Source: a virus
Strand: one strand, 5' to 3'
DNA length: 24,908 nucleotides
IMG/VR virus record: IMGVR_UViG_3300022861_000009
Span: 1 to 24,908 of that record
Shown here: positions 8,789-11,807 of the stretch, piece by piece
Layout of the letters: each line of letters begins with the position of its first letter
Position numbering within the stretch: position 1 is the first letter of the stretch
Notes under the pieces: generated by a model
Database searches by the model: none
The model's input: the letters and a program-made list of their open reading frames with translations, nothing else
Told to the model about the DNA's origin: nothing
Made by a program: the position numbers and the translations under genes

Positions 8789-9256
8789 ATGGCAACCGTC
8801 TCGGTAATTCCCAACGCTCCAGAGCACATGTCAGACAAAGCCGCAAAACAGTGGGCGGCAGCTTACACAAAAGCTTTCACCCAGGCGAAGCTCGATTACC
8901 CGGATAATGAGTCCGCCCAACGCACGGTGGCGCTCAAGAGTGCGAACGCGCTCCTCGCTGTGCCCGCGCCCACTTCCGCTGATGAAATAGCGAAACTACA
9001 GGAGTGGCAAGTTCTGCTCAGGGAAGATCGCACCATCAAGAACGTTCCGACGCGCGTGTGCGTGACAGTCGACGGGCGCAAGTACGCGTTCCCGATCGCC
9101 GATGCGGCTCCTCAGTCTGTCGATCTTTCGAAGATGACGAAGGAACAACTGATTGCGCATGCCGCCGAAGTGCACGGTCTGACTCTCGAACCGGCCGCGA
9201 TCAAAGCGGATTTGATCGCAGCAATTCAGACCCAGGCTGCCGTCACAGAGAAGTAA
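8789..9256 (+). CDS. Small protein with ChaB-like N-terminus and HeH/SAP-like C-terminus
   Basis: A 155-residue soluble protein between the minor head and protease-capsid genes. Residues about 5-57 resemble the small ChaB-like helical domain found in several phages: a short proline-containing lead-in, then an AYTKAFTQA helix, a Tyr/Asp/Asn-rich turn, and a helix with repeated Ala. Residues about 112-148 (LSKMTKEQLIAHAAE ... AAIKADLIAAI) resemble the two-helix HeH/SAP fold that binds DNA or protein. The middle has a beta hairpin (RVCVTVDGRKYAFPI). Family calls are from pattern only. A ribosome binding site AGGAG (8776-8780) precedes the ATG. It might be an internal head or scaffold-associated protein; function is not known. 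Confidence 0.5.
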   Translation: MATVSVIPNAPEHMSDKAAKQWAAAYTKAFTQAKLDYPDNESAQRTVALKSANALLAVPAPTSADEIAKLQEWQVLLREDRTIKNVPTRVCVTVDGRKYAFPIADAAPQSVDLSKMTKEQLIAHAAEVHGLTLEPAAIKADLIAAIQTQAAVTEK

Positions 9257-9269
9257 CAACGAGGTTCGA

Positions 9270-11807
9270 ATGAAGCAACCACTTCAATTCGCGCACCAGC
9301 TCCGCAGAGCAGCGACAGTTCTGCGGAGCGCCATCCTGCTTGCAGCCGAAGCAGATCTCTCGCTCGATGAGCAGCAGTCGCTGCTCTCTGGAGCATTGCG
9401 CGCGCAATTCGGCGTGAGCTGTTCGTGCTGCCAGGGATGCGCTGATCAGTGCTGCCAGGGCTGTGCGAACGGTACCGGATGCCAATGCTGCCAGGGATGC
9501 AGTGGTGGTCAGTGCTCCTCGCGCTTCTATCTCTACGAGACGTTCAGCGATTATCTGATTGCGCGCGGTCCCGATCAGGCTCTCTATCGCATCCCTTACA
9601 CGATCGACGGCGAAACTGTCACCTTTGGCGACGCGCAGGAAGTCACGACGGCCTACGTGCCCGTTGCCACCGAATGCGAGTTCGTTGCCAGCGAGGCGGA
9701 CGCCGACCAGCAACCTGGACGCTATCCCATCGTGGCGATTCGCGCGGGATGGGCGACGGGCGGCATCAGCGGCGCAAGGGTCCCCCACTACTACACTCCC
9801 GAGGTGGTCAAGCAAGTAGCTGAGGCCGTCCACGGAAAACCCTTTGGGCGCCGGCATCCGGAGATCGGCGGTCCGGACCCTACCGGCGCAGCCGATCCCG
9901 GCCGCATCGCCGGCTGGATGGAGGGCGGATCGTTTGATGGGACGCAAGCGATTACCACCGTCAACCTGTTTTCCGCGGAGTCCGATTTGCGTTCGAAGCT
10001 TGACGATGCGCGGAAGGCGAAGCGCCTCAACCTGTTCGGTACGTCGACACTGATGAATGTGAAGTTCAAGGCCGGCCGAATCGAGGGCAAGGACTGCCTG
10101 GTGTCTGAAAGCCTGGACACTCTTTTCTCTGTCGATCTCTGCGCCCGCGGAGGCGCGGGCGGAAAGTTCCTCGTTGCCAATAGCGACGTGGCGAGCACAC
10201 TGTCGGCCGCGCAGTTGAGCGCGGTCAAACCTGAATCCCCGGCGATTGTTCCCAATCGCCCGAACCGCGGCGGCGCTGCCAGCGCTACCGAAGGAGCACC
10301 AATGAAGAATTCCATTCTTCGCCTGCTCGAAGCGCTTCGGCAAAAGAACGCCGCGCGTTGCGCCGAGCTGAGTTTGAAGTTCGCCACCGTTGCCGAGGCC
10401 GATTACGCGACCTTTATGGAGACGGTCACAACCGCTCTCACTGAAACGCCTGCCGCGCCGGTTGTGACTGTGACCGCCGCCGAGGCCGCTACGCAGCTCG
10501 CCGAGGCGCATCGCATTCAGAGCCGCAACCGGATTGAGACCTCCCTGGTCAGCTCGAAGCTGCCCAAGCCGGCGCAGGACCTGGCGCGCACGCACCTGGA
10601 GTCCGCCCTGGTCAGCGAAGCCGACCTGCCGCAGACCACCATCGACGCGGAAATCACCAGCATCCGCACCGCTTTTGCCGCGTTCAATAACGTGGGCCGG
10701 GTGCGTCCCGGATCGGTGATTACGCTCGACTCCGCCGACAAGCTTCACCTGGCGATGGAAGCGGCCCTGGGCATCAAGGATTCGATGAGCAAGGGTGTGC
10801 CGGCATTCAAGGGCCTGCGCGAGGCCTACATCACCATCACGGGTGATTACGACTTGAGCAACCTGACCGGCGGCGGTGGCTTCAGCGGCACCCGCATGCT
10901 GGCTTCGGAAGCTGTGATGACGGGCGACTTCCCGAATATCCTGCTGAACTCCATGACCAAGCGTCTGCTGCAGGACTGGGCGGAGTTGGCGCTCGATGGC
11001 CTGTCGAACCTCTACACCAAGGCTTCCATCAGCGACTACAAGCTGCAGGACCGGGTGCGTGAGGGCTACTTCGGCGAACTGCCGATCGTGGCTGAAGGTA
11101 CGCCGGGCTATACGGAAATTGCCAAGCCCACGGATGAGCGCGTGAGCTACCAGATGCAGAAACGCGGCAACTTGCTCTCGATCTCCGAGGAGACGATCCG
11201 CAATGACGATCTGGGCGCAATCGCCCGCTTCCCCGGCCGCCTGGCGCGGGCTGGCCGCTGGACGTTGAAGAACTACATCACCAACTTCTTTGTGAGTAAC
11301 CCCAACTACGGTGCGGATGCCGTGGCCTGGTTCAACGCCGCGCACTTGAACGTCGGTTCAGCCGCCCTTTCGCAGGATGCCCTGATCACCGCTGAAATTA
11401 CGCTGATGACCCAGACCGAGAAGGATTCGGGCGAACCCCTCGGGTTGCCGCTTGATTGGATCATGGTGCCTCCGGCCCTGGCCGCCACCGCGCGCCAGAT
11501 CAACCAGACCAACACCGCCGGTTCCAACGCCTTCTACCAGCGGTTCGGCGCCAACAATGAGCGCATCTTCGTCAACGAGAAGCTCACTGACGTGACCGAT
11601 TGGTACTACGGCACCAATCAGAACAATGCTCCCTTCCTGGAAATCGGCTTCCTCGACGGCATCGAGAACCCGCAGATCTTCCTCGCCAACCAGCCCACTG
11701 TCGGTACTCAGTTCACGATGGACGAGCTGCAATACAAGGTGAAGATGGTCTTCAACGGCGCCATCATCGACTTCCGCGGCGTGGGCAAGAACGTCGTCGC
11801 CGGCTAA
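9270..11807 (+). CDS. Fused prohead protease, linker/scaffold and Mu gpT-like major capsid protein
   Basis: One 845-residue reading frame. Residues 51-82 hold 12 cysteines, including three CCQGC copies. Residues about 86-300 look like a prohead protease: GRRHP (193-197, with His196 as possible catalytic His), GRIAGWMEGG, FGTST (Ser259 as possible nucleophile), and an ending SLDTLFSVDLCARGGAGG like that of phage prohead proteases. Residues 300-345 are a linker. M345 begins a second unit: a helical, scaffold-like part (345-470), then the capsid with motifs FGELPIVAEG, ISEETIRNDDLGA and WYYGT, which resemble the Mu gpT family with HK97 fold. A strong internal ribosome binding site before M345 could make the 501-residue capsid part separately. 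In Mu, the protease, scaffold and capsid are genes I, Z and T; here they lie in one frame. The 9270 start has GAGG five bases upstream. Confidence 0.85.
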   Translation: MKQPLQFAHQLRRAATVLRSAILLAAEADLSLDEQQSLLSGALRAQFGVSCSCCQGCADQCCQGCANGTGCQCCQGCSGGQCSSRFYLYETFSDYLIARGPDQALYRIPYTIDGETVTFGDAQEVTTAYVPVATECEFVASEADADQQPGRYPIVAIRAGWATGGISGARVPHYYTPEVVKQVAEAVHGKPFGRRHPEIGGPDPTGAADPGRIAGWMEGGSFDGTQAITTVNLFSAESDLRSKLDDARKAKRLNLFGTSTLMNVKFKAGRIEGKDCLVSESLDTLFSVDLCARGGAGGKFLVANSDVASTLSAAQLSAVKPESPAIVPNRPNRGGAASATEGAPMKNSILRLLEALRQKNAARCAELSLKFATVAEADYATFMETVTTALTETPAAPVVTVTAAEAATQLAEAHRIQSRNRIETSLVSSKLPKPAQDLARTHLESALVSEADLPQTTIDAEITSIRTAFAAFNNVGRVRPGSVITLDSADKLHLAMEAALGIKDSMSKGVPAFKGLREAYITITGDYDLSNLTGGGGFSGTRMLASEAVMTGDFPNILLNSMTKRLLQDWAELALDGLSNLYTKASISDYKLQDRVREGYFGELPIVAEGTPGYTEIAKPTDERVSYQMQKRGNLLSISEETIRNDDLGAIARFPGRLARAGRWTLKNYITNFFVSNPNYGADAVAWFNAAHLNVGSAALSQDALITAEITLMTQTEKDSGEPLGLPLDWIMVPPALAATARQINQTNTAGSNAFYQRFGANNERIFVNEKLTDVTDWYYGTNQNNAPFLEIGFLDGIENPQIFLANQPTVGTQFTMDELQYKVKMVFNGAIIDFRGVGKNVVAG
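10291..10304 (+). promoter_or_regulatory. Internal ribosome binding site and start for the capsid part
   Basis: AAGGAG (10291-10296) lies five bases before an in-frame ATG (10302-10304). This is the best ribosome binding site in the region and sits exactly at the join between the protease-like and scaffold/capsid-like parts. Starting here would give a 501-residue product ending at 11807. Capsid protein is needed in hundreds of copies and protease in few, so a separate start makes sense. Confidence 0.7.

Follow-up and report, generated by a model that had tools for sequence, protein, structure and literature searches.

Background

In bacteriophage Mu, the protease gene I contains an in-frame internal start from which the scaffold Z is made (annotated as 'start site internal to gene I'), and the capsid protein is encoded downstream by a separate gene, T, that overlaps the end of Z by 4 nt. 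In phage lambda, an in-frame start inside the protease gene C, which encodes a ClpP/S49-type enzyme, makes a scaffold, Nu3, that shares sequence with the protease protein, and the capsid protein E is the product of a separate gene. The prohead protease of T4, gp21, is likewise encoded by a gene of its own. Delta domains or scaffolds of the HK97 type are helical, and we know of no tailed phage that needs one protease per shell subunit.

Fusion of the protease to the capsid protein is itself already known, from the names of NCBIfam families, from phage MD8, whose gene 5 is described as protease-scaffold-capsid (PMC8508860), and from Nocturne116 and PAJU2 (PMC8306868). For PAJU2, an autocatalytic polyprotein has been proposed, as reported in the Nocturne116 paper (PMC8306868). 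The word 'internal' does not occur in the MD8 paper (PMC8508860), and we found no report of an internal start in the literature on protease-capsid fusions, in which subscription journals and preprints were thinly covered, so that priority is not certain.

Here we analyzed a window of 24,908 nucleotides (positions 1 to 24,908 of the IMG/VR virus record IMGVR_UViG_3300022861_000009), in which a protease, a scaffold-like part and a capsid protein of the PF25209 type lie in one frame, as they do in the fusions of NCBIfam NF045541 and NF045540 and PHROG 133 and 4523 (MD8, Fels-1 and RcKvothe).

Results and discussion

Organization of the fusion gene

The gene is a single open reading frame of 845 amino acids on the plus strand (9270..11807), beginning with ATG, and its extent is exactly that given by the earlier note, which had also correctly placed an AAGGAG (10291-10296) and an in-frame ATG (10302..10304, codon 345) at the join between the protease and capsid halves. 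The ribosome binding site (RBS) of the long product is a weaker GAGG at 9261..9264 (+). In seven relatives (L008, L022, L023, L025, L030, L036 and L044) the fusion frame extends upstream past the conserved start region, remaining open for a further ~100-147 codons, and an extra N-terminal part or another start is possible in these genes. A 700-codon open frame runs antisense to the fusion gene (9243-11345, -) and is most likely a by-product of high-GC codon usage.

A Cys-rich insertion of CCQGC repeats (9417..9515, +) is present in the window and two relatives (L002 and L003) and missing in near-identical ones (L004-L006, ~92-96% identical). Its DNA unit, TGCTGCCAGGGATGC, occurs there in three copies within two mismatches, and is also found in arrays of the unrelated phage contigs L356, L370 and L315, where it is read mostly as Ala-rich repeats. 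The insertion looks like a mobile simple repeat, to judge from these sequences, and is probably outside the two-product mechanism proposed below.

The internal start and its conservation

Using a simple duplex energy against the 16S rRNA tail as the measure of RBS strength, the site preceding M345 is the best among the 14 in-frame ATGs of the gene (-8.0 kcal/mol, compared with -5.2 for the next and -6.6 for the long-form start), and its AAGGAG stands 5 nt before the ATG. Searches of viral contigs yielded about 40 relatives, 26 of them distinct at <95% nucleotide identity, with pairwise identities of 53 to 91%; a scan of genome contigs returned no relatives. The internal ATG is kept in all 26 distinct relatives and the AAGGAG in 25, at a spacing of 5-8 nt, and in the single exception (L041) GGTGAGG precedes the same ATG. 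When starts were compared within 25 relatives, the internal RBS exceeded those of the candidate N-terminal starts by a clear margin in nearly all (-8.0 in most, against 0 to -7.5).

This conservation extends to the choice of codons. G342 is encoded by GGA in 25/25 relatives and A343 by GCA in 23/26, codons that account for 12.9% of Gly and 10.4% of Ala usage, respectively, and these two are the most constrained of the 470 conserved codon columns. Across the whole gene, synonymous conservation in 9-codon windows peaks at codons 331-345 (2.08; mean 1.22, sd 0.19). The protein around the start is variable, with zero, one or two extra residues, and the bases are constant: they are the same under K-G-A in L043 and L045 (about 43% identity) and Q-G-A in L023 as under E-G-A. 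On this sequence evidence the internal start is under selection, and the pattern at M345 looks like that of a start codon in use.

One might suppose that the RBS and ATG are left over from a once-separate scaffold or capsid gene and are now unused, and unfused relatives of the PAJU2 lineage (see below), whose capsid gene begins at the corresponding Met, make it plausible that the site is an older gene start. An unused signal should decay at synonymous positions, but no other spot of the gene is as constrained as this one among relatives down to 53% nucleotide identity, and its bases persist where the amino acid before G-A differs (E, Q or K). We thus consider a relic extremely unlikely.

The second-highest stretch of synonymous conservation (2.02) follows immediately, at codons 347-359. 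Within it, codons 353-357 (CTC GAA GCG CTT CGG; 10326..10340, +), which contain the palindrome CGAAGCGCTTCG at 10328-10339, are under a strong synonymous constraint that the RBS does not explain. The run of constraint into these codons, and an RNAalifold consensus that is unusually stable at the join (-12.8, compared with -2.1 +- 2.5 for other windows), would fit an RNA structure or other nucleic-acid signal that acts without any translation initiation. However, the mean z from synonymous shuffles of single sequences is only -0.68 at the join, initiation requires just such an ATG with an RBS whose distance may vary (5-8 nt), and in other fusion groups ATG and RBS are kept without this sequence. 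We give hardly any credence to such a signal as the sole cause of the constraint. A hairpin that masks the internal RBS, considered separately, was not supported, the shuffles showing no extra masking. No promoter-like signal was found near the internal start.

The protease half

Sequence searches of the N-terminal half against Pfam, PHROG and the PDB gave nothing decisive, and its assignment therefore rests on its fold; in its relatives this half shows weak PHROG matches to 'head maturation protease'. A model of residues 81-302, built from 12 relatives, reached a pTM of 0.71. Foldseek placed T4 gp21 in the top three PDB positions (E 4.6e-4 to 1.5e-3, probability 1.0; best match 5jbl, E 4.6e-4), the remainder being noise, and matched the model to 51 predicted viral structures at E<=1e-3, of which the named ones are mostly prohead proteases; TM-scores of these matches are only about 0.4-0.5. 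The half that the earlier note had called protease-like is thus borne out by structure: in the model, it has the prohead-protease fold of the gp21/S78/herpesvirus kind (residues 81-293; 9510..10148, +, as delimited by model, Foldseek and conservation), and the activity is a prediction.

Among the relatives, S259 (10044-10046, +) is invariant and H196 (9855-9857, +) invariant or nearly so, which makes them, on conservation, the natural candidates for catalytic residues. Sequence similarity to T4 gp21 was not detectable and a profile comparison was not significant; the same holds for Mu I. Neither Pfam nor PHROG matched the half to ClpP. Whereas gp21 is the product of a separate gene in T4, its structural counterpart here is fused to the capsid protein.

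The scaffold-like and capsid parts

Residues 548-838 (10911..11783, +) match the Pfam family Phage_capsid_4 (PF25209) at E 6.8e-32, with 112.2 bits against a gathering cut-off of 27. For the Mu-like gpT family (PF10124), the scores are 19.1 bits for the whole protein and 20.5 for the short form, at a gathering cut-off of 20.1. The protein is thus a tailed-phage capsid protein, as proposed from the sequence earlier, but the Mu gpT-like nature then ascribed to it is marginal, its nearest family being PF25209. PHROG and NCBIfam group this half with families named 'head maturation protease' and 'prohead protease/major capsid protein fusion'. The gene has the layout that defines NF045541 (scaf_prot_MCP2), a protease and a PF25209 capsid in one frame. 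Its scores, however, are far under the NCBIfam cut-offs (154.9 bits against a curated 525 for NF045541, over residues 409-841 only, and 133 against 475 for NF045540, the ClpP-like protease/MCP fusion), and its protease is of a different, divergent type without a Pfam match.

Between the two halves, helices are predicted at residues 339-473 in a full-length model whose capsid half is poor. By analogy with helical delta domains and scaffolds, residues 345 to about 473 would be a scaffold- or delta-like region; judged from these helices and from its position before the capsid domain, this putative region may be drawn, with an approximate boundary, to residue 539 (345-539; 10302..10886, +).

The comparison with Mu concerns the arrangement. 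Scored in the same way, the Z start ranks first of the 15 in-frame starts in Mu gene I, and the window has a matching start signal at the end of its protease part. In Mu T is a separate gene, whereas in the window and its relatives the Z-like and T-like parts form a single frame. The first 12 residues of the window's scaffold and of Mu Z (MNETLRKLLARL against MKNSILRLLEAL) are alike, although not significantly so: hhalign pairs both starts at a probability of 0.4%, and the best blastp E value is 0.09 in a small set. We suggest that the window's gene acts as Mu I/Z/T would if Z were joined to T, and claim no membership of the Mu family. The earlier note had taken the short form to be the capsid protein. 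Its internal start at the join stands, but since this start corresponds to the Z start inside gene I, the predicted short product (10302..11807, +; 501 aa) would comprise scaffold and capsid and so equal Mu Z plus T.

Lambda resembles the window in that its scaffold shares sequence with the protease protein through an in-frame start, and differs in its protease type and its separate capsid gene. It is an imperfect control for our RBS scoring, the annotated Nu3 start (codon 239) having a weak site (-2.7, rank 11 of 34). The strongest internal RBS in lambda C (L426 119-1438) lies at codon 309 (CAGGAGGGCGA ATG, -10.8), and the annotated Nu3 start may deserve a second look.

Internal starts in other protease-capsid fusions

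Fusions of the NF045541 and NF045540 type resemble the window in having an internal ATG with an RBS at the join. MinM1, Pd_22F, PBb001, Nostoc phage JY21, MD8 and Fels-1 each have an in-frame ATG and RBS just after the protease domain; in Fels-1 the Met corresponding to M345 is M220. We compared the relatives of PBb001 (S78-type protease), Fels-1 (ClpP-type) and MinM1 (S78-type), with frames fixed by tblastn. An ATG is present in the join window of 55/58 PBb001-like, 14/14 Fels-1-like and 49/50 MinM1-like distinct genes, and of the four genes without one, two (L236 and L119) have a GTG with an RBS-like stretch. The median energies of the join RBS are -6.6, -6.0 and -6.9, respectively, compared with about -2 for other in-frame ATGs (p 1e-23, 3e-9 and 1e-23). 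A join ATG with SD <= -5 is found in 100% of window-like, 83% of PBb001-like, 100% of Fels-1-like and 94% of MinM1-like genes; elsewhere in these genes, windows of the same width give a mean of 2-11% and a maximum of 29-46%. In the Fels-1 group the internal sites are intermediate in strength (about -6) and rarely rank as the best in their gene; a column at the join nevertheless comes first of 360 for synonymous constraint in these genes. Two members of the PBb001 group (L080 and L085) have a capsid frame without a recognizable protease and lack the RBS and ATG in the join window; they may be unfused forms.

In a FastTree tree of 142 capsid parts from the PBb001-, Fels-1-, MinM1- and window-like genes, in which long branches are present, well-supported branches imply at least 4-5 changes of protease type, and parsimony counts 10. 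Because the protease type changes on the capsid tree, yet both S78- and ClpP-type fusions keep a start at the join, these sequences indicate that the two kinds of protease have repeatedly replaced each other in front of a single capsid family, the exchange taking place at the join and the start staying where it is.

Pseudomonas phage PAJU2, annotated as encoding a 'prohead protease fused capsid protein', resembles the window in that an internal ATG with a strong RBS lies at its join (best internal start M197, -10.8), but its capsid is a different, HK97-like one and its protease also differs; the two fusions are independent. In its relatives SOVA965, Mcat1 and Mcat7 the protease and the capsid protein are encoded by separate genes, and the capsid gene begins at a Met aligned with PAJU2 M197 (the capsid frame of SOVA965 as read: MKTYAEQIADLEATREAKTKRMKE). 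Since the capsid genes of these unfused relatives begin at the aligned Met, the alignment identifies the internal Met of the PAJU2 fusion as the capsid start of the unfused form. An internal start thus appears to be common to every protease-capsid fusion group examined, at least four besides that of the window when PAJU2 is counted.

Two products from one gene

The gene very probably gives two products, a protease-scaffold-capsid protein of 845 aa and a scaffold-capsid protein of 501 aa, of which the short one would form the bulk of the shell and a minority of long ones would carry the protease in. Two products from one gene had been suggested before on the strength of the internal start; its conservation in relatives, named at that time as a check, and the prohead-protease fold now support this reading. 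Initiation at 9270 would yield the long protein, and initiation at the stronger, conserved ATG at 10302 the short one, which we infer to be the dominant subunit. Because both products share the scaffold and capsid parts, the long subunits would be expected to co-assemble into the prohead, placing the protease inside; after assembly, the protease would cut the scaffold parts, and itself, off the shell. The gene would then represent a Mu-like I/Z/T set in which the stop between Z and T was lost and the Z-type internal start was kept. Lambda C/Nu3 does the same job through a shared scaffold, and retroviral Gag-Pol does it by recoding.

Alternatively, only the 845-aa protein might be made and then cut itself into protease and capsid, with one protease for every subunit. 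The frame is open throughout in all relatives, a single coding sequence and no internal start are annotated in every fusion record that we fetched and examined, and the reports on MD8 and PAJU2 regard the fusion product as a single protein or a polyprotein, with autocatalysis being the idea reported for PAJU2 (PMC8306868). However, a polyprotein leaves unexplained the conservation of AAGGAG and ATG, the constraint at the codon level and the recurrence of the start across protease types, and it would imply hundreds of proteases per shell. We regard it as quite unlikely as the sole route, and self-cleavage of the long form may occur alongside internal initiation.

Conclusion

A gene that fuses protease and capsid seems to demand one protease per subunit; a conserved internal start resolves this difficulty and predicts two products at a set ratio. 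It would also offer a simple route by which genes can be fused without losing their separate expression. Many phage and prophage records probably give the wrong start for the capsid gene, the true main product beginning at the internal Met, and such mis-annotated starts would affect capsid phylogenies, structure prediction and proteomics searches. It seems to us rather probable that tailed phages with a maturation protease fused to their capsid protein follow a general rule, dosage control by internal initiation, and that such fusions arise again and again, with unrelated proteases exchanged, only because a start retained or regained at the join keeps most subunits protease-free. If this is true, DNA phages would have their own counterpart of Gag and Gag-Pol, one overlooked when the phages and prophages examined here were annotated.
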